Below are positions 7,393 to 17,064 of a DNA stretch of 64,000 bases, one piece after another. Location: the NCBI GenBank assembly GCA_020846935.1, contig JADLCY010000008.1, positions 62,001-126,000 of the forward strand. The letters are read 5' to 3'. The stretch is from Gemmatimonadaceae bacterium (lineage in GTDB: Bacteria; Gemmatimonadota; Gemmatimonadetes; Gemmatimonadales; Gemmatimonadaceae). Both the position numbers and the translations under genes were made by a program. The notes beneath the pieces are model-generated. The model was not told where the DNA came from and did not search any database. It saw only the letters and a program-made list of their open reading frames with translations. Every line of letters starts with the position of its first letter. Positions within the stretch are counted from its first letter, which is position 1.

Positions 7393-10300
7393 ATGACCCG
7401 ACACCTTTTCATCGCCTCCTCGGCCCTCGCCCTCTCCCTCACGTCCCCGGCCAGCGCGCAGGGCACCCTGCTCCTGCGCCAGCCCACGGTGAGTGCGCGT
7501 CATATCGCCTTTGCGTACGCAGGGAACATCTGGGTGGTGGACCGCGGCGGCGGTCAGGCGCGTCGCCTCACGTCGTTCCAGGGCGGATCTTCAGACCCGC
7601 GGCTTTCGCCCGATGGCCAGTGGGTTGCCTTCACTGGAACCTACGCAGGAAATGCAGATGTGTACGTGGTCGCGGTGGATGGCGGCGAGCCGGCGCGCCT
7701 CACCTGGCATCCGGGCAATGACGCCGTCACCGGCTGGACGGCCGATGGCAAGCGCGTCGTGTTTGCCAGCGGGCGGGCGAGTCACGCGCCGAACGCCGTG
7801 CCGCGCTTCTGGACCGTGGCCACCACGGGCGGGTTCGAGCAGCCGATGGCGCTGCCTCGCGCGTTTCAGGGTCAGGTGAGTCCCGACGGCGGGCGCATCG
7901 CCTATCGCATGGCGTCGTCCTGGGACGATGAACGGCGCAACTACCGCGGCGGACAGAACAAGCCCATCTGGGTGGTCAACCTCGCGAACTGGGCGACCGA
8001 TACCATTCCGCGCCCGATCAACTCCAAGGAGATCGAGCCGGTGTGGCTGGGTGATGACGTGTACTTCATTTCGGATCGCGACGGGGTCCAGAACGTCTGG
8101 CGCTATGGCTCGCGCTCCAGGCAACTCACGCAAGTCACGAAGTTCCGCGACTTCGACGTGAAGACGCTGGGTTCCGGCGGCGGCGCCGTGGTCTTCGAGC
8201 AGGCCGGTCGCATCCACCTGCTCGATCCGGCGTCAGGAACGAGCCGTGCGGTTCCGATCACCGTGACGGGAGACTTTCCCTGGATCATGCCGCAATGGAA
8301 GGACGTGACGGCACGCGTCTCCAACCTCGCGCTTTCGCCCACCGGGCGACGTGCGCTGGTCGAGGCGCGCGGCGAGATCTTCACCATCCCCGCCGAGAAG
8401 GGCGACGTGCGCAACCTCACGCACACGAGCGGCGCCGCGGAACGCATGCCGACGTGGAGCCCCGATGGGCAGTCGATCGCGTGGTTCTCCGACGTGTCGG
8501 GCGAATACCAGCTCGTGGTCGCGTCGCAGGACGGCATGACGTCGCGGTCGATCGCGCTTCCGTCCATGAGCTTCCCGTACTCGCCATCATGGTCGCCCGA
8601 CTCGAAGAAGCTCCTGTTCACAGACACGCATCTCAGGCTCTGGGTCGTGGACGTTACCTCGGGGACGGCACGCCAGTTCGACGGCGACCCGTTCATGGTA
8701 CCGGAGCGTTCGATGAATCCGGTGTGGAGCCCCGACTCCCGATGGATTGCGTTCGCCCGACGCTTGCCGACCTACTATCGCGTGATCGTGGTGATGAACG
8801 CCGAGACCGGTGAGCAGAAGCAGATCACCGACGGGCTGGCCGATGCCACGTGGCCGGCCTGGGACGCCAACGGCAAGTACCTGTGGTTCCTCGCGAGCAC
8901 CGACTTTGCGCTGCGCTCGCAGTGGCTCGACATGACAAACTACGAACGGCCGCGCACCAACGCGCTCTACGTCGCGGTGCTCAAGGCCGGCGAGCCGACA
9001 CCGTTCACGCCGGAGAGTGACGACGAACCGTTGGGCGGCGCCGGCCGTCCACCGACACCAGGCGGTGCCCAGGCAACCGACGCGGCCCAGTCCGCGGCGC
9101 CGCGGTCCGTGGCGGTCGCGATCGACTTTGACGGGTTGGCGCGGCGGACCATCGCCGTGCCCGGCATCTCCGCGCGCGACTACGCGCAGCTCAGGGCCGG
9201 ATCTGCGGGGACCGTCTTCTTCACGGAGAACGTCGCGGCGTCTGGCACGGGCGGCGGTCCCGGAGGGGCACCGCTGCACCGCTACGTGCTGCGCGAGCGT
9301 CGCGCCATGACGTTTGCTAACGGCGTACAGCAGTACACCGTCAGCGCCGACGGCCGCAAGCTGCTGTACCGGACCGGTGGACCACAGGCCGCCCTCTACC
9401 TCGTGGATGCCGGCGCTCCCTCGGCGCCGGCCGCGAACAGCGGCCGGCTCAACGCGACGCTCCGCATGTGGTGGGATGGCAAGGCGGAGTTTGCGCAGAT
9501 CTTCGAGGAAGCGCGCCGCAAGGTGCGGGACTACTTCTATGTGCCGAACCTGCACGGGACTGACTGGCCAAAGGTGGTCGCCCAGTACAAGCCCTTCCTC
9601 GCCCACGTGGTGCACCGCGAGGACCTGAACTACCTCCTCGACTGGATGGAGGGCGAGACGGCGGTCGGGCACTCGTACGTACGTGGCGGGGACATGCCCG
9701 CCGTTCCTGACGCCAACGGCGGCCTGCTGGGAGCCGACCTCGCTATCGAGAACGGTCGCTATCGCATCACGCGCATCTACGACTCCGAAAGCTGGAACCC
9801 GGAGTTGCGCGCCCCGCTGGACGCGCCGGGAATCGACGTCCGTGCGGGAGAGTACCTGCTCGCCGTAAACGGACAGGAGCTCCAGGGTTCGGACAACGTC
9901 TATCGGTTGCTCGACGGCACGGCGAACCGACAGACGATCATCACGGTGAATTCGCGCCCGACGCTTGAAGGCGCGCGTCGAGTCACGGTGGTGCCGGTGG
10001 CGAACGAGCAGGGACTCCGGACCCGCGCCTGGGTCGAAGGCAACCGGCGGCTCGTCGACTCGCTCTCCGGCGGAAAGCTCGCCTACCTGCATCTCCCCAA
10101 CACCGGACAGGGGGGCTACGCCTCGTTCAACCGCTACTACTTCGCGCAACAGGACAAGCTTGGCGCCGTCGTGGACGAACGATACAACGGCGGTGGCTCC
10201 GCGGCCGACTACATCATCGAACTCCTGAGCCGCGACTTTGACGGATACTTCAACAACCCGGTGGGGGATCGGCGGCCCTTTACGTCGCCCTCGGCCGGGA

Positions 10301-10689
10301 TCTGGGGCCCAAAGGTGATGATCATCAACGAAATGGCCGGCTCTGGCGGCGACCTGATGCCGTACATGTTCCGCCGCCGCAAGATCGGTCCACTCATTGG
10401 CACGAGAACCTGGGGCGGCCTCGTGGCCACCTCGGACCAGGCACCTTTTGTCGATGGAGGCGGCCTCGTGGCACCTCGGCTTGGCTTCTTTGATCGCGAC
10501 GGAAAATGGGCCGTGGAAAACGAAGGCGTCGCGCCAGACATCGAGGTGGAGAACTATCCGCGCGAGGTGATCGCCGGTCGCGATCCTCAGCTCGAGCGAG
10601 CAGTCGCCGAAGCGATGAAGCTGCTTCAGGCGAATCCGGTGGTGCTGAGGAAGGAGCCACCCGGGCCCACCTGGGGTCGACGACCCTAG
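7393..10689 (+). CDS. Tricorn-like S41 serine peptidase, exported
   Basis: A 1098-residue Tricorn protease homologue with signal peptide MTRHLFIASSALALSLTSPASA. Residues about 25-550 hold WD40/PD40-type repeats (DPRLSPDGQWVAFTGTY, MPTWSPDGQSIAWFS, SPSWSPDSKKLLFTD, NPVWSPDSRWIAFAR) that form propellers gating substrate access. A C1 segment with GHSYVRGGD (about 758), a PDZ-like part with VDVRAGEYLLAVNGQ, and the S41 core follow. The nucleophile Ser is in NEMAGSGGDLMPY and the acidic residue in AVENEGVAPDIEVE. Tricorn enzymes degrade oligopeptides; an exported form would act in the periplasm. A hairpin terminator follows directly. Confidence 0.93.
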   Translation: MTRHLFIASSALALSLTSPASAQGTLLLRQPTVSARHIAFAYAGNIWVVDRGGGQARRLTSFQGGSSDPRLSPDGQWVAFTGTYAGNADVYVVAVDGGEPARLTWHPGNDAVTGWTADGKRVVFASGRASHAPNAVPRFWTVATTGGFEQPMALPRAFQGQVSPDGGRIAYRMASSWDDERRNYRGGQNKPIWVVNLANWATDTIPRPINSKEIEPVWLGDDVYFISDRDGVQNVWRYGSRSRQLTQVTKFRDFDVKTLGSGGGAVVFEQAGRIHLLDPASGTSRAVPITVTGDFPWIMPQWKDVTARVSNLALSPTGRRALVEARGEIFTIPAEKGDVRNLTHTSGAAERMPTWSPDGQSIAWFSDVSGEYQLVVASQDGMTSRSIALPSMSFPYSPSWSPDSKKLLFTDTHLRLWVVDVTSGTARQFDGDPFMVPERSMNPVWSPDSRWIAFARRLPTYYRVIVVMNAETGEQKQITDGLADATWPAWDANGKYLWFLASTDFALRSQWLDMTNYERPRTNALYVAVLKAGEPTPFTPESDDEPLGGAGRPPTPGGAQATDAAQSAAPRSVAVAIDFDGLARRTIAVPGISARDYAQLRAGSAGTVFFTENVAASGTGGGPGGAPLHRYVLRERRAMTFANGVQQYTVSADGRKLLYRTGGPQAALYLVDAGAPSAPAANSGRLNATLRMWWDGKAEFAQIFEEARRKVRDYFYVPNLHGTDWPKVVAQYKPFLAHVVHREDLNYLLDWMEGETAVGHSYVRGGDMPAVPDANGGLLGADLAIENGRYRITRIYDSESWNPELRAPLDAPGIDVRAGEYLLAVNGQELQGSDNVYRLLDGTANRQTIITVNSRPTLEGARRVTVVPVANEQGLRTRAWVEGNRRLVDSLSGGKLAYLHLPNTGQGGYASFNRYYFAQQDKLGAVVDERYNGGGSAADYIIELLSRDFDGYFNNPVGDRRPFTSPSAGIWGPKVMIINEMAGSGGDLMPYMFRRRKIGPLIGTRTWGGLVATSDQAPFVDGGGLVAPRLGFFDRDGKWAVENEGVAPDIEVENYPREVIAGRDPQLERAVAEAMKLLQANPVVLRKEPPGPTWGRRP

Positions 10690-10698
10690 AAGAACGCA

Positions 10699-10726
10699 GC
10701 GGGGCCCGGCAGACGCCGGGCCCCGC
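10699..10726. terminator. Bidirectional hairpin terminator
   Basis: A perfect 12-base inverted repeat GCGGGGCCCGGC (10699-10710) with loop AGAC pairs with 10715-10726. It sits in the 57-base gap between the convergent S41 and S9 peptidase genes and can serve both. There is no clear T tract on either side. Confidence 0.65.
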
Positions 10727-10746
10727 CGTGCCTCGGGCGCTGGGCG

Positions 10747-12771
10747 TTACGGGTTGTTGCTCACTGCCTTCGTCCGCCTGAGCACGTGCTCCGAGAACCA
10801 CTTGTCCTGTTCCACGTCCAGGTGGAGCCGGTGGACCGGCTCGGTGATGCCGTGTCCTTCGCGCGGATAGCGGAGGAACTCGACCGTCTTTCCGAGCTTC
10901 TTGAGCAGCCGATAGTACTCGTCGGCCTGCGGGATGGGCACGCGAGTGTCGTTCTCACCGTGCGTGATCAACAGCGGTGTGGTGACCTTCGTGGCATGCT
11001 CGATGGGCGACCACCGCTCGTACGTGGCCTTGGACGCACTCGGCAGGCCGCCGAAGCCGAACTCCAGCAGATTCGGGATATCGGTCTGACCAAAGAACGA
11101 GTACCAGTCGGAGATGCCGGCGTGGCCGATCGCGGCCTTGAAGCGCGAGGTCTGCGTGACCGTCCAGAAGGTCATGAACCCGCCGTAGCTGCCACCCATC
11201 ACAGCGAGCTTTGACGAGTCCGCGACGCCCATCGCGATCACGTGGTCGACGCCCTTCATCAGATCGACGTAGTCCTTGCCGCCCCAGTCGTTCTGATTGG
11301 CCGCACCAAACGCCAGCGTGCGCCCGGAGCTGCCGCGTGGATTGCCCTGCAGCACGGCATACCCGCGCGCCGCCCAGATCTGGGCGCCGGCGTTGAAGTT
11401 GGCACTGTAGCGTCCAAACGGCCCGCCGTGGACCTGAAGGATCATCGGAACCTTCGCACCCGGCTGGTAACCGAGCGGGTAGGTGAGAATGCCTTCGATG
11501 GTCCAGTTGTCGGCCCCCTTCCATGTGATGGGCTCCGATCGGGCGATATTGAACTCATCCAGGCGATCTTGCTCGGCGAGAATACGCACCGGCTGTGTGC
11601 CGTCACGACCGGTGAGGTAGACGAGACCTGGCTCGGTGAGTGACCCACCACTCACCAGCCACTTCGTGCCGTCGGACGACGCCGAGAAGTCGCCGAAGAC
11701 AAAGTCCTTGCCGAGGGGCACTTCCACCGGCGTGCCGCCAGAGGCCGCGATCCGGTAGAGCCGCGTCGTCAGCCCTTCGGCCGACGCAAAGTAGATGTGC
11801 GAGCCGTCGGCCGACCACTCGAGGTTGGAGATCGAGTAGTCGTGCGTCGACGTCAGGTTCCGCGCGGTGCCGCCCTGCGCGGGGATGACCTTCAGATCGA
11901 TCTGGTCGGCCGAGTGATTGCGGAGGTCGCTCGAGGCGTACGCGATGAACTGACCGTTCGGGGAGAACACCGGGCCGTTGTCGGGGCCGAGGTTCGCGCC
12001 GGTGATGGCGCGTGGTTCGCCGCCAGCCGCGGGGACAATGTAGATGTCGCTGTTGTTGCTCCAGTTCGCATCGCGCGCCGTGGTGCCGGTGCGGTTCGAG
12101 CTGAACGCGATCCACTGCGCATCGGGCGAGAACACCGGCCCCTGGTTGTCGCTGGTACCGCTCGTGATCTGTGTCCGGGCCTTCGTCGCCAGGTCGAACG
12201 TCCACACATGCGTATACGTGAGCTTCTTCTCGGCGTAGTAGCCATCGTCCTTCTTCTTGACGCGGTCGTCCCATTCCTTCTTGTCGGGTCGCTCGGTTTC
12301 CTGTGTGTAGACCAGGTGCTGGCCGTCCAGGGAGAAGCTGCCACCCGTCGGCAGGCTGTCGCCTTCAACCAGCTTCACTGCTTCGCCGCCGCGCGGGGAA
12401 ATGACGTACCAGGCGTTGCGCCCATCGCGATTGGACGTAAAAGCCACACGTCCATCCGGCAGGAACCGCGCGTTCGATTCACCGCGCTGGGAGTTCGTCA
12501 GCTGGAGCGACGTGCCCGCAGCCACGTCGTACAACCAGATGTGGGATGTGGCGGCCCACTCCCGGGGCTCGCGATCGGTGCGTGTGAAGAGTACGGTCCT
12601 GGCATCCGGCGAGAGCCGGTAGCCGCCGTACGTGGGCCGCGCGAGCACGTCGCGGAGCGTGATGTTTTTCTTCTGTTGGGCCGCCATCGGCGCGGCCAGC
12701 AGGAGTACCGTGGCGGCCGCCAGCGTGCGCAACAGGTACGCCCGGGTGCAGCGAGCGGAGGAGGTGTGCAT
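10747..12771 (-). CDS. S9 family prolyl oligopeptidase, exported
   Basis: A 674-residue serine peptidase that cleaves peptides through the prolyl-oligopeptidase fold. A signal peptide MHTSSARCTRAYLLRTLAAA leads into LLLAAPMAAQQ. Residues about 35-410 are WD40-like propeller repeats (GPVFSPDAQWIAFSSNR, GPVFSPNGQFIAYASS, NLEWSADGSHIYFAS). The C-terminal alpha/beta-hydrolase domain has the nucleophile in VMGGSYGGFMTF, Asp in HGENDTRVPIPQ and His in REGHGITEP. The frame is open to 13101, but the extra residues are not protein-like and the signal peptide places the start at 12771. Length and motif order are normal for acylaminoacyl-peptidase-type S9C enzymes. Confidence 0.94.
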   Translation of the reverse strand: MHTSSARCTRAYLLRTLAAATVLLLAAPMAAQQKKNITLRDVLARPTYGGYRLSPDARTVLFTRTDREPREWAATSHIWLYDVAAGTSLQLTNSQRGESNARFLPDGRVAFTSNRDGRNAWYVISPRGGEAVKLVEGDSLPTGGSFSLDGQHLVYTQETERPDKKEWDDRVKKKDDGYYAEKKLTYTHVWTFDLATKARTQITSGTSDNQGPVFSPDAQWIAFSSNRTGTTARDANWSNNSDIYIVPAAGGEPRAITGANLGPDNGPVFSPNGQFIAYASSDLRNHSADQIDLKVIPAQGGTARNLTSTHDYSISNLEWSADGSHIYFASAEGLTTRLYRIAASGGTPVEVPLGKDFVFGDFSASSDGTKWLVSGGSLTEPGLVYLTGRDGTQPVRILAEQDRLDEFNIARSEPITWKGADNWTIEGILTYPLGYQPGAKVPMILQVHGGPFGRYSANFNAGAQIWAARGYAVLQGNPRGSSGRTLAFGAANQNDWGGKDYVDLMKGVDHVIAMGVADSSKLAVMGGSYGGFMTFWTVTQTSRFKAAIGHAGISDWYSFFGQTDIPNLLEFGFGGLPSASKATYERWSPIEHATKVTTPLLITHGENDTRVPIPQADEYYRLLKKLGKTVEFLRYPREGHGITEPVHRLHLDVEQDKWFSEHVLRRTKAVSNNP

Positions 12772-13169
12772 GGTGTCGAGGTCGAAGGTGGAAGACGCCG
12801 GACGCCGCCAGCGACGCGGAACGCCCGCAGAACCTACAGCCGGGCCGCGGCCGCAACAGCCATCGCGGGGCCTGATGCCGCCGCGGCAGCAGAGACGCGT
12901 TGCGCGGCGCTCGCTCGCCGTCGGGCCCGAGGGGCCAGCGAGCGCCGTGTGCTCCCCGAAGCCCACCCGGTTCGCGGTACCTCGCTGGCAAGGCGTTCCG
13001 CCTCTCAGCGTGGCACGCCCACGCTCCGCTGACGTGGGCGCACCAACGCCACAGCCGGGTCGGCCGGCGCGGCATCCGGAACGGCGGAGGCGAACGCGCA
13101 CCCCGCGTCACAGAGTGCTCGTCGGGTGGCGGAGCCAGCGAGGCAGCGGCGAGTCTGCGGGTGTAGCCG
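12772..13169. other. Intergenic region, divergent promoters
   Basis: Some 400 bases separate the leftward S9 peptidase from the rightward Vgb-like gene. Frames here translate to Arg/Pro/Ala-rich strings with no domain. I see no convincing promoter hexamers or long inverted repeat. Confidence 0.4.
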
Positions 13170-14255
13170 ATGCCTGACGGACGTCGAAAGCTTGACAGCG
13201 GGGACACCGACCCACCGTATGGAGCGAACTGCGCTGCATTCTCGCCCCTTCAGCTCGCCGCCGCCATGCTCCTCACCCTGAGCCTTGCCGCCGTGACGGC
13301 GGTCGCCCCCATCGCATCGCGACGGCCCGCCGTCGACACCATCACCATCCGTGAGTGGAGTGTGCCGTGGGACAAGACCCGCCCACGCGACCCCTACGTC
13401 GCCGCCGATGGACGTATCTGGTTCTGCGGCCAGGCCGGCAACTACATCGCCGTGCTCGATCCGCGCACCGGCAACTTCAAGCGCTACGAGCTGTCGGAGA
13501 ATACCAACCCGCACAACCTGATCATCGACAAGCAGGGCTTCATCTGGTATTCGGGGAACGTGAACGCGCACATCGGCAAGCTCGACCCCAGGACCGGCGA
13601 GATCACCCGCTTCCCGATGCCCGATCCGGCGGCACGGGACCCGCACACGCTGATCTTCGACAAGGCAGGCAACATCTGGTTCACCGTGCAGAACGGCGCC
13701 TTCGTCGGCCACCTCGACACGAAGTCCGGCAAGGTGCGCCTCGTGAAGATGGAAGCCGGGTCGCGCCCCTACGGCATCGTCATGAACTCGCGCGATGAGC
13801 CGTACTTCAACCTGTTCGGGACCAACCGCATCGGCACCATCGATCCGAAGACGATGACGCCACGCACGTTCGCGCTGCCTAACGAACGCGCCCGCGGTCG
13901 ACGCATCGCCATCACCTCCAACGACGACGTCTGGTACGTGGACTACACGCGGGGATTCCTCGGCAGGCTCACGCCGTCCACCGGCGCTGTGCACGAGTAT
14001 CCCTCACCGGGAGGCCCGAACTCGCTGCCGTACGCGCTCACGGTCGACGACCACGACCGACTGTGGTATTCCGAGAACGCGCCCAACCGGCCGAATCGCA
14101 TCGTGGGCTTCGACCCGCGCTCCGGCATGTTCGTGCCGGGCATCGAGGTGCCCAGCGGTGGACAAACGGTGCGACACATGATCTTTCATCGTCCCACGCG
14201 TTCGCTCTGGTTCGGCACCGACGCGAATACACTCGCCAGGGTCACTCTCCCGTGA
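13170..14255 (+). CDS. Virginiamycin B lyase-like beta-propeller protein
   Basis: A 361-residue protein made of repeated blades: DPYVAADGRIWFCGQAGNY, HNLIIDKQGFIWYSGNVN, HTLIFDKAGNIWFTVQN, ITSNDDVWYVDYTRG and LTVDDHDRLWYSENAP. This is the streptogramin B lyase (Vgb)/NHL-like propeller family. True Vgb opens the streptogramin ring, using a His and two Glu on the propeller top, but most distant homologues in environmental bacteria have unknown substrates. A hydrophobic segment MLLTLSLAAVTAVAPIA begins at 13266 and may be the signal core; that ATG is an alternative start if the 32 upstream residues are not translated. The flanking genes give no clue. Confidence 0.8.
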   Translation: MPDGRRKLDSGDTDPPYGANCAAFSPLQLAAAMLLTLSLAAVTAVAPIASRRPAVDTITIREWSVPWDKTRPRDPYVAADGRIWFCGQAGNYIAVLDPRTGNFKRYELSENTNPHNLIIDKQGFIWYSGNVNAHIGKLDPRTGEITRFPMPDPAARDPHTLIFDKAGNIWFTVQNGAFVGHLDTKSGKVRLVKMEAGSRPYGIVMNSRDEPYFNLFGTNRIGTIDPKTMTPRTFALPNERARGRRIAITSNDDVWYVDYTRGFLGRLTPSTGAVHEYPSPGGPNSLPYALTVDDHDRLWYSENAPNRPNRIVGFDPRSGMFVPGIEVPSGGQTVRHMIFHRPTRSLWFGTDANTLARVTLP

Positions 14256-14494
14256 CGCGCACCACCGCGTCGCGGATCCAGCACTCAGGTCCGTCTGCTC
14301 GGCAGGATCGGCAGCGAGCCTGAGTTGCTTACCCCGCGCTCGTGCGGGCCACACGTGCCAGTGCCGTTCCGCCGCCGGGAGTGGGCAGGGTGACTGAATG
14401 TGTGTGACGCCTTAACGGCGTCCTCTGACACGCGTCCGATTCAACAGCGGTGAGGGCACAGCCGCCATGCACCTATAGCGAATCGGAGGGTTCC

Positions 14495-14893
14495 ATGCGT
14501 TCGATGATCGTCGCTCCACTCGCGGCCCTGCTCGTGGTCGCCACCGCCTCGACGCTCGAGGCCCAGTCTGCTCCGCCCCGATGCTACCGCATGCCCTGCG
14601 ATCTGCTCGAGGATGTCCGGGATCGACGGGAGAACCGGCGTGATCGCGCGGAGGACGTGCGCGACCGACGCGAAGATGTCCGCGATCGGGCCGAAGATCG
14701 CCTGGATCGACGCGAAGACCGGCGCGATGCGCGCGTCGACGGTGGGCCGAGGGATCGACTCGAGGATCGGCTCGATCGGCGAGAGGATCGTGCGGATGTG
14801 CGCGAGGACCGTCGTGATCGTCGCGAGGACGTGCGCGATCGTGCAGAGAATCACCGCGACCGCCGCGAGAACCGTCGCGACCGCCGTTCCTGA
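14495..14893 (+). CDS. Secreted Asp/Arg/Glu heptapeptide-repeat protein
   Basis: A 132-residue protein with a strong Shine-Dalgarno (CGGAGGG, 4 bases before the ATG at 14495) and a signal peptide, MRSMIVAPLAALLVVATAST, ending near LEAQ. After a short CYRMPC segment, nearly all of residues 38-132 is a 7-residue repeat of the form D-x-R-D-R-x-E: DVRDRRE, NRRDRAE, DVRDRRE, DVRDRAE, DRLDRRE and so on, about thirteen units with one irregular Gly-Pro break. The result is a very charged, near-neutral polyampholyte, likely a single long helix or disordered. Function is unknown. A strong terminator follows. Confidence 0.78.
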   Translation: MRSMIVAPLAALLVVATASTLEAQSAPPRCYRMPCDLLEDVRDRRENRRDRAEDVRDRREDVRDRAEDRLDRREDRRDARVDGGPRDRLEDRLDRREDRADVREDRRDRREDVRDRAENHRDRRENRRDRRS

Positions 14894-14912
14894 TCAGCAC
14901 CTCTTCAATGGC

Positions 14913-14950
14913 AACCGACCCCCGCTCGATCAGCGGGGGTCGGTTTGTCT
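14913..14950 (+). terminator. Strong intrinsic terminator
   Basis: A perfect 14-base inverted repeat AACCGACCCCCGCT (14913-14926) and its complement (14932-14945) with loop CGATC, followed by TGTCT. It lies 20 bases after the heptapeptide-repeat gene and probably also limits read-in from the convergent leftward gene. Confidence 0.8.
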
Positions 14951-15416: not shown

Positions 15417-15881
15417 CTATCCCTTGCCGAGGAGTTTCTGCGCGGCCTTGATGCGGCGATCGGCCGCGCGACGGCTTTCGCCTGCGTATCGACTCTCGGC
15501 CTCCATGCTGCCGAGGATCGCACTGCCGCGCAGGATGATTCGCGGCGCACCCGGCAATGGCACCGCCGTTGGGTCGGGCTTGAAGGTGTAGCTCCCCATG
15601 AGCGCGTCGCCCTCCATTTCGACCGTCACGCCGGGGGGCAGAAGCAGTTCGACCGATCCCAGCAGGATTTTGGTCTCGATGATCGTCTCGCCCTCGGCGA
15701 GGCGCGCCTCGCGCAGGTCAACTTCGACGCTGCCCATGCAGCAGGCGATCCGCAGGTGGCGCGGCACCTCCCACGCCCCGCGTCGTTCCTGCGAACTGAA
15801 GAACGACAGGATGCCTCCGCGTTCCCGCACCGCGTCACCTGGGACAACGTCGAATTGATCCTGGCGCGTCGGAAGCGTCAT
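15417..15881 (-). CDS. LiaF-like cell-wall-stress C-terminal domain protein
   Basis: A 154-residue cytoplasmic-looking protein. Its core, IACCMGSVEVDLREARLAEGE followed by a repeat ILLGSVELLLPPGVTVEMEGDALMGSY, is the parallel-beta pattern of the LiaF/VraT C-terminal domain (often DUF1707/DUF2154 neighbours), in which G-S-V-E-V-D strand turns stack. In Firmicutes LiaF senses envelope damage with a membrane anchor; this copy lacks transmembrane segments. The C-terminus ADRRIKAAQKLLGKG is a basic helix. The ATG at 15881 lies 4 bases after the stop of the upstream AlaX-like gene, so the genes form an operon. Confidence 0.75.
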   Translation of the reverse strand: MTLPTRQDQFDVVPGDAVRERGGILSFFSSQERRGAWEVPRHLRIACCMGSVEVDLREARLAEGETIIETKILLGSVELLLPPGVTVEMEGDALMGSYTFKPDPTAVPLPGAPRIILRGSAILGSMEAESRYAGESRRAADRRIKAAQKLLGKG

Positions 15882-15885
15882 GGTC

Positions 15886-17064
15886 TCAGGGTGCTTCGAT
15901 GGGGAAACCTGTCGCCGCCACGGCGCGCTGCAAGGCGTCGAGATCGGGCGCGCTGCCCTGTGCCAGGCGCGGCGACCCTCCACCCTTCCCACCGACGGCC
16001 GTGAGCGCGGCCTTCACGCTGCGGCCGGCATCCACGCCCGAATCCTCCGACGACGCAATGAGCAGGGCGCGCGAGGCATCGAGCACGGCGACGTAGACGG
16101 CTCGTGGCTGGTTCGCCATGGCCAGTGCGAAGGCGCGCACCTCGTCAGCACCACTGGTCGCGCGACGTTCCACGATCCACCGAACACCTTCTGCATCCGG
16201 CGCGGTCGAGTCCCAGCGGGCGCGCGCACGATGCCCGGCAAGCTCGTCTTCGAGTTTCCGTCGTGCGGCCTCGACCGTACGCAACTGCTCGGCCTGCGCG
16301 GGCACCAGGGTTCCCAGCTCGTCGATGGACGCCGAGGCCGCGGAGGCGAGAGATGCAAGAATGCTGTAGTCCATCCGCGCGCGACGCACGGCGCGGGCGC
16401 CACACACGAACTCCACGCGCGTCTGGCGGCGCATCCGTTCGGCCCGACGCACCAGGATCGGCCCGATCTCGCCGGTGGCGCGCACATGTGTCCCGCCACA
16501 GGCGCTGCGATCGATGCCGTCGATCGTGACGATGCGGAGCACGCCCAGCCGATCCGAAGCTTTGCGCAGCGAGGTGACGGTCGCGGCGTCCTCGAACGAC
16601 ACCGTCACCGCGCGATTCGCGGCGACCACTTCATTCGCACGCGCCTCGGCGGCCACGAGGTGATCGAGCGGAATCGCGTCGTGCGCGAGGTCGAGCGTGG
16701 CGTAGTCGGGGCCAAAGTGCACGCTGGCCGTTTCGTAGCCGAACCGGTCGGCGAACACGGCGGAGAGCAGGTGTTGACCGGTGTGCTGCTGCATGTGATC
16801 GAACCGACGCGACCAGTCCACCACACCCTCGACCGCACCCGGTGCAAGCGGCGCCTCGAGCACGTGAGCGACGCGTGCCTCCTCGTCGATCACGTCCGTC
16901 ACGGCCACGCCGCTGATCGTGCCCCGGTCCGCCGGCTGGCCACCCGAGGTCGGGTAGAACGCCGAGCGATCGAGATAGACCCGCCGGCCTTCATCGGTCA
17001 CGTCGACGATGGTTCCGCGGAACGCGCAGAGGTAGGCGTCGCCGTAGTAGAGCCGTTCCGTCAT
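15886..17064 (-). CDS. AlaX-like alanyl-tRNA editing protein with DHHA1 domain
   Basis: A 392-residue stand-alone homologue of the alanyl-tRNA synthetase editing half. Such proteins hydrolyse Ser- or Gly-tRNA(Ala). The N-terminal part has the beta-barrel AlaRS motifs FYPTSGGQPADRG and VDWSRRFDHMQQHTGQHLL, giving the first zinc pair in HTGQH (about residue 93). The second pair is in DRSACGGTHVRATGEIG (about 184). Residues 230-290 look like a coiled coil and residues 320-392 form a DHHA1 domain with the Gly-rich ending VGGKGGGSPRLAQG. This is the long AlaX type. It overlaps the upstream zinc-ribbon gene by 4 bases. Confidence 0.9.
   Translation of the reverse strand: MTERLYYGDAYLCAFRGTIVDVTDEGRRVYLDRSAFYPTSGGQPADRGTISGVAVTDVIDEEARVAHVLEAPLAPGAVEGVVDWSRRFDHMQQHTGQHLLSAVFADRFGYETASVHFGPDYATLDLAHDAIPLDHLVAAEARANEVVAANRAVTVSFEDAATVTSLRKASDRLGVLRIVTIDGIDRSACGGTHVRATGEIGPILVRRAERMRRQTRVEFVCGARAVRRARMDYSILASLASAASASIDELGTLVPAQAEQLRTVEAARRKLEDELAGHRARARWDSTAPDAEGVRWIVERRATSGADEVRAFALAMANQPRAVYVAVLDASRALLIASSEDSGVDAGRSVKAALTAVGGKGGGSPRLAQGSAPDLDALQRAVAATGFPIEAP

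Follow-up and report, generated by a model that had tools for sequence, protein, structure and literature searches.

The open reading frame at positions 14,495 to 14,893 of the window (the whole 64,000-nucleotide stretch of DNA that was analysed) encodes a small, highly charged protein, for which an architecture of two helical arms, matched in length and linked through a conserved turn, is well supported by comparison with its relatives. An ECF-type promoter element that appears to be common to the hairpin genes of Gemmatimonadota is likewise well supported, and this promoter, which was absent from the first-pass annotation of the same DNA, carries most of the functional information. With a probability of roughly 0.55, the protein is read as a secreted charged hairpin that is controlled by the ECF promoter and acts as an electrostatic chaperone or scaffold under envelope stress. 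The features of the locus are as follows.

14412..14436 (+), ECF-type promoter element TTAAC-N16-CGTC (-35 at 14412-14416, -10 at 14433-14436), from genus alignment, window scan and phylum sample
14485..14490 (+), ribosome binding site GGAGGG, from the sequence; GGAGG was invariant in five genus upstream regions
14495..14893 (+), charged heptad hairpin protein, 132 residues plus stop, from the open reading frame, homologues and dN/dS
14495..14563 (+), signal peptide of 23 residues ending in LEA ahead of Q, from inspection and similar leaders in many homologues
14582..14599 (+), Cys-X4-Cys, residues 30-35, immediately ahead of the first arm, from the sequence
14603..14734 (+), N-terminal heptad arm of six units, from register count and AF2 helix
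14735..14749 (+), turn V-D-G-G-P, with GG at 14741-14746, from conserved turn columns and the AF2 helix break
14750..14887 (+), C-terminal heptad arm of six units, from register count and AF2 helix
14914..14944 (+), terminator-like hairpin with a 13-bp stem and a short T run, from sequence and folding energy

The reading frame (plus strand, ATG start, 132 residues) matched the coordinates of the first-pass annotation exactly. The protein was laid out as a 23-residue leader, a short Cys-X4-Cys linker and heptads that ran nearly to the last residue. Secretion had been proposed, and the leader MRSMIVAPLAALLVVATASTLEA, followed by Q, fits a signal peptide as judged by inspection only. The proposal had been made to depend on signal-peptide-bearing homologues with the same heptad; leader-like starts were seen by eye in many hairpin homologues, including those of other phyla, so the proposal withstood this check. 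Charged residues made up 69% of the protein, which bore out its description as a polyampholyte; the GRAVY value was -2.45, and the net charge was slightly positive (+3). The gene had its own ribosome binding site at 14485-14490, as claimed. A terminator had also been claimed, and the 13-bp stem at 14914-14944 was found; the 71-nt stretch with this 3′ hairpin had a folding energy of -34.5 kcal/mol (z -4.3). The T run after the stem is short (TTTG), and hence the hairpin is a likely rather than a certain terminator.

The hairpin gene was single-copy in its own genome, where the next match had an E value of 0.26. The window protein matched no Pfam or NCBIfam family at E<=1 and no PHROGs family at 0.1, and a literature search, in which four motifs were also entered as letters, returned no paper on the charged heptad repeat. 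Families of this kind may go unannotated because low-complexity filters usually remove highly charged repeats. A mobile or phage origin of the gene was rejected, as tblastn against plasmids and phages gave nothing at 1e-5 and no PHROGs family was matched.

Matches to the window protein at E<=0.001 were present in 31 of 148 genomes of the family and 51 of 395 genomes of the phylum. They were also present in 20 of 395, 41 of 285 and 33 of 294 genomes of the phyla of an Emticicia, an Omnitrophica and a Pirellulales genome, respectively, the weakest of all these matches taking in other charged or coiled-coil proteins. The same heptad with the same turn occurred in named Lentisphaeria, Bacteroidota, Omnitrophota and Planctomycetota records. 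The 105 loci that were kept contain duplicates as well as three unrelated charged proteins (L100, L113, L165), which were turn-less and entered no arm count. An identical protein was encoded by JAEUJL010000065.1 (L007, a Gemmatimonadetes MAG) and by contig C743 of G075, a genome of the window's genus.

Six of the 10 pairs of genus orthologues were estimable and gave a dN/dS of 0.038-0.112 over the arms; these values are rough, with dS saturated in the genus pairs. By this comparison, the hairpin gene is real and under purifying selection. Two overlapping minus-strand open reading frames (14412-14900 and 14441-14854) were set aside as probable by-products of composition, given the purifying selection on the plus frame. 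The first-pass annotation had supposed that the repeat could expand or contract by slippage or recombination. The 21-base period in the DNA is real but weak, with matches of 68-85% between units, and six units on either side of the turn were kept in five genus orthologues, the window's included, when repeat number was compared across species. Hence, no trace of recent expansion is seen within the genus, whereas arm length does vary among distant relatives, in most cases with both arms changing in step. The MAG-68 assembly (L007, L011) broke at the hairpin gene, so that two contigs each hold its first residues, L011 ending after about 46; k-mers overlapping within the repeat are the probable cause.

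Counted in strict register, the protein has 12 heptads, six on either side of the GG, instead of the "about thirteen" that had been described. The heptads themselves are real, and the unit is better written as D-R-[RA]-E-[DN]-[VR]-R than as D-x-R-D-R-x-E. The reported Gly-Pro interruption is a true break, but it is actually Gly-Gly-Pro (VDGGP) in the conserved turn. Unit statistics were collected over 871 units, with position 1 taken from 797. Position 1 was D in 98.2%, position 4 was E in 98.9% and position 5 was D or N in 98.1%, and R occupied position 2 in 75% and position 7 in 72%. At position 1 the unit filter admitted D, E, N or H, and at position 4 it admitted E, D or Q; the presence of an acid is thus partly by construction, and the preference for D at the former and for E at the latter is a genuine finding because alternatives were allowed. 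Positions 3 and 6, which would form the hydrophobic core, were Arg or Lys in 62% and 38% of cases, and a canonical coiled coil with hydrophobic a/d positions was rejected on this ground.

The arms of the window protein were two-faced, with acidic residues on one side and arginine plus aliphatic residues on the other, in directions separated by about 185 degrees. Each arm had a charge moment larger than that of 5000 of 5000 shuffles. Moreover, residue pairs at i/i+3 and i/i+4 carried like charges about 2-3 times as often as opposite charges; in the N-terminal arm, 9 opposite and 17 same-charge pairs were counted at i/i+3, and 8 opposite and 18 same-charge pairs at i/i+4. Single alpha-helices of the ER/K type have very high charge, with opposite charges placed at i/i+3 and i/i+4. 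The charge pattern of the window protein is the opposite of theirs, which implies that partner surfaces balance the charge. The Arg faces of both arms would repel each other if they met in the core, a point against the hairpin reading.

The turns were collected with a search pattern that fixed GG, a D four residues after it and an E seven residues after it, and arms were counted by an outward walk from each turn in heptad register with one missed unit tolerated. Three of the 77 turn matches lacked a heptad in the expected register and were excluded, which left 74 turns in 72 proteins (24 turns from Planctomycetota, 19 from Gemmatimonadota, 19 from Omnitrophota, 11 from Bacteroidota and 1 from Lentisphaeria). 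Aligned on the GG, the commonest residues gave the consensus E-D-[VI]-[RW]-D-A-x-H-D-G-G-x-x-D-[RK]-[LI]-E-D, in which the GG and the D and E that follow were set by the search pattern. Arm length ranged from 3 to 10 heptads, and the two arms agreed within one heptad in 69 of the 74 turns and were equal in 53 (Spearman 0.80 across turns). Random placement of the turn gave a mean of 9.0 matched turns and a maximum of 20 in 10000 draws. The five exceptions were L036, L120, L123, one turn of L124, and L173. When relatives that were at least 80% identical were removed, 58 of 63 turns remained within one heptad, 45 of them with equal arms. Ten proteins had other tips, i.e., a longer loop or a coiled-coil-like tip instead of GG, including one ordinary coiled-coil hairpin; their arms were matched in nine, and 13 further non-identical proteins in this comparison had no assigned turn. 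The lengths of the two arms are coupled, as would follow if one arm lay along the other, and the matched lengths provide an argument from sequence for the architecture. The elements of a helical hairpin, two helices matched in length and a turn, were found, the helices being predicted and the lengths counted.

In the AF2 model from the single sequence, helices spanned residues 12-59 and 62-108 of the mature protein (pLDDT 87, pTM 0.42). A 10-row alignment gave helices at 11-59 and 62-108 and lowered the pLDDT to 71 (pTM 0.34). Antiparallel packing was not confidently predicted because the pTM was low in both models. Cross-arm hydrophobic covariation gave no peak at the facing layer, Foldseek returned 0 PDB matches for the window protein model, and a sequence profile search of the PDB gave no significant match (best E 0.59, to a chain called "sohair"). 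Cysteine was located no more than 12 residues ahead of the arms in 18 of the 74 turn proteins. In L060-L063, unlike in most relatives, both open ends had a Cys no more than 12 residues away, and this placement suggests the arrangement that a closing disulphide would need. A turn-less relative with a single charged arm and Cys near both ends (L095) may be built as if for an intermolecular pair.

The promoter element was evaluated in the genus, the phylum and beyond. TTAAC and CGTC were invariant and 16 nt apart in five aligned genus upstream regions. In the window, the element lay 83 to 59 nt ahead of the ATG and was the sole match to TTAAC-N16-CGTC in the 64 kb (0.09 expected). Among the hallmarks of ECF sigma factors given in a review are AAC at -35, CGT at -10, a co-transcribed anti-sigma and autoregulation (PMC8103513), and the window element carries the AAC/CGT hallmark as given there. 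In a sample made up of the best-scoring loci from the searches, the element (N16/17) was located upstream of 33 of 42 Gemmatimonadota hairpin genes, with a spacer of 16 in 29 and of 17 in 4; the 200 sets of shuffled upstream regions gave a mean of 0.03 and a maximum of 1. It preceded 14 of 19 genes of the window's repeat type and 19 of 23 genes of a second type, (DRRDLRS)n, and was absent from 5 of 19 and 4 of 23, respectively. Furthermore, a pattern-free scan for gapped 5+4-mers in the phylum's 19 upstream regions of the window's repeat type ranked TTAAC-N16/17-CGTC first, with 14 of 19 regions against 3-4 in the best of ten shuffle sets. In Omnitrophota, TAAAC-N16/17-CGTC was found independently in 12 of 30 upstream regions (shuffles 4-5). 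The motif of Bacteroidota was weak (5 of 11; shuffles 3-4) and probably came from close relatives, and no motif rose above shuffles in 28 upstream regions of Planctomycetota. Genome-wide, TTAAC-N16/17-CGTC was not commoner than its reversed control (10 vs. 11 in the window's own genome, 80 vs. 115 in ten genomes), and hence the pattern is convincing by position and orthology alone.

By this comparison, two different repeats stand behind one promoter in Gemmatimonadota. The second secreted heptad type, (DRRDLRS)n, was observed at L040-L053, L055-L058 and L067-L071, mostly with a G-D type turn, and the unrelated protein L054 was kept out of this class B set. With turns picked by eye and 4 of 23 loci left out, the class B arms agreed within 10 residues in 16 of 19 (Spearman 0.29, p 0.23). 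The arm rule is not claimed for class B because its arms are only roughly matched.

In the window's own genome, one site starts 42 nt before an ECF sigma gene (Sigma70_r2/r4), which is followed by a zf-HC2 protein; this anti-sigma neighbour was checked in that genome. The sigma factor had a match in 14 of 16 genomes, and the element lay no more than 70 nt from the start of the best match in 11 of 13 testable cases, ten by script and one (G121, a contig-edge locus) from coordinates. The element was at 125 nt in G372 and absent in G208, and the gene was truncated in G054. From the shared element, we infer that this L204-type sigma factor reads the hairpin promoter. A second sigma gene (L195) was rejected for this role; its element was 184-228 nt upstream, and the conserved spacer looks like the coding sequence of the preceding gene.

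The wider candidate regulon was assembled from 11 genomes (the window's own and ten others), in which the element preceded the sigma gene in 10, the hairpin gene in 9, a DUF1800 family in 7, the LTXXQ-like L203 family in 6 and an esterase in 5. Pfam named one member each of the DUF1800 and Esterase_PHB groups, and the rest were assigned by BLAST; of the 80 sites in the ten genomes, 40 were fetched and 17 were assigned by coordinates. The LTXXQ Pfam cut-off of 24.3 bits was passed by the candidates L290 (37.4), L321 (33.6) and L295 (30.0), with L310 just under it (23.1), and three tested members of the L203 family were below it (L296, 24.0; L203, 20.1; L304, 14.3). A TTAAC-N16-CGTC site was located 138 nt ahead of a reading frame judged by eye to be MreB-like (L293, G024:C59:23388), and the regulon would thereby be connected with cell shape. 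One Omnitrophota genome was scanned over 1.6 of its 1.97 Mb, and TAAAC-N16/17-CGTC occurred there 25 times vs. 28 for the reversed control. Four sites with the fuller form TAAAC[CT]TTT, which was defined after the family upstream regions had been viewed, preceded the hairpin gene and three further genes; these three have leader-like starts, and an LTXXQ-like stretch was seen by eye in one of them. Inspection by eye over the same 1.6 Mb revealed no sigma gene behind the motif.

The promoter supplies a probable functional setting, envelope stress, and the predicted ECF sigma regulon belongs to a little-studied phylum. In the proposed mechanism, envelope stress, the presumed inducing signal, would release the sigma factor. 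The TTAAC-N16-CGTC promoter would then drive transcription of the hairpin gene, in common with the sigma/zinc-finger anti-sigma operon and the LTXXQ-like, DUF1800 and secreted esterase genes. The hairpin would be exported to the periplasm or outside the cell, where its arms, each with an acidic side and an arginine/aliphatic side and joined at the GG turn, would pack together. The charged faces may pair mutually or with charged partners such as unfolded proteins, LPS or cell-wall polymers. Taken alone, the role of electrostatic chaperone or scaffold under envelope stress falls somewhat short of even odds; it is suggested by the regulon company, which consists of exported proteins, several of them LTXXQ-like.

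Among the alternatives, a desiccation or osmotic protectant of the hydrophilin or LEA type holds up best, although it is unlikely. Such a protein would be disordered when wet and helical when dried or crowded, and the detail of its sequence would matter little. The composition (GRAVY -2.45, 69% charged) and the stress-type promoter element agree with a protectant, but D and E are position-specific and the arms are matched, and a generic protectant would need neither. LEA group 3 proteins have an 11-residue repeat, and membership of this group was rejected on the period of 7. LEA proteins and hydrophilins resemble the hairpin family as hydrophilic polyampholytes with plausible stress regulation; the hairpin family differs in its period, its strict residue identities and its conserved turn.

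A metal- or mineral-binding protein of the extracellular matrix, whose acidic faces would bind Ca2+ or mineral, is more doubtful than a protectant. Hairpin arms are fused to EF-hands in Lentisphaeria and Planctomycetota (L003, L029, L149, L171), similar stretches in Omnitrophota L123 and L140 were identified solely by eye, and the regulon protein L304 had a sub-threshold Metal_resist match. However, the window protein has no EF-hand and a net charge of +3, and no EF-hand was seen by eye among the Gemmatimonadota proteins inspected. Polymerisation into layers or condensates, in which the acidic face of one molecule would stack on the basic face of another, is given the same low standing: two-faced charge would allow it and the turn-less L095, with Cys at both ends, fits an intermolecular antiparallel pair, but the matching of two arms in a single chain favours pairing inside the molecule first. 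The single long charged helix of the first-pass annotation, a rod or spacer of the SAH or ER/K type, agrees with a charged, helix-predicted and heptad-periodic sequence, but is very improbable given the conserved central turn, the matched arms, the two AF2 helices, the opposite-face charges and an excess of about 2:1 of same-charge over opposite-charge pairs at i/i+3 and i/i+4.

The charged hairpin under ECF control was also compared with known systems. Spy/CpxP (LTXXQ) proteins are likewise small, secreted and helical, and LTXXQ-like genes stand behind the same Gemmatimonadota element; the window protein differs in having no LTXXQ Pfam match (E<=1) and a regular seven-residue repeat. Antiparallel coiled-coil hairpins share the two matched arms and the turn, and some relatives have a coiled-coil-like tip, whereas the core positions 3 and 6 of the window family are rich in Arg/Lys (62% and 38%). 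Basic-acidic dipeptide (BAD) RNA-binding proteins are eukaryotic and nuclear, with mixed Arg-Asp/Glu repeats, and are self-assembling. The mixed Arg-acid repeats are alike, but the hairpin protein is probably exported and has regular heptads and a turn.

A broader proposal is put forward more tentatively than the chaperone or scaffold role itself. Equal-armed, charge-faced hairpins may form a widespread undescribed envelope-stress class of electrostatic chaperones or self-assembling envelope scaffolds. The regulon slot would take either the DRREDVR or the DRRDLRS heptad, selection would keep the physics of a charged hairpin and not its sequence, and ECF-type control would recur in a second phylum. 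Arms of 3 to 10 heptads provide a natural series in which to study how helix pairing is specified by charge patterning.

The hairpin gene has no operon partner, because shared gene clusters are almost confined to its genus, and traces were seen in a single further genus (L189). Several neighbours were observed in the window. Tricorn-type and S9 peptidase genes adjoin at 7393-13101, and a LiaF-like C-terminal domain protein lies near the hairpin gene at 15417-15992 (-). The reading frame at 13170-14255 (+) matched the Vgb_lyase (Virginiamycin B lyase-type) profile at 122.6 bits, and three further genomes of the genus have a related reading frame close to their hairpin gene.
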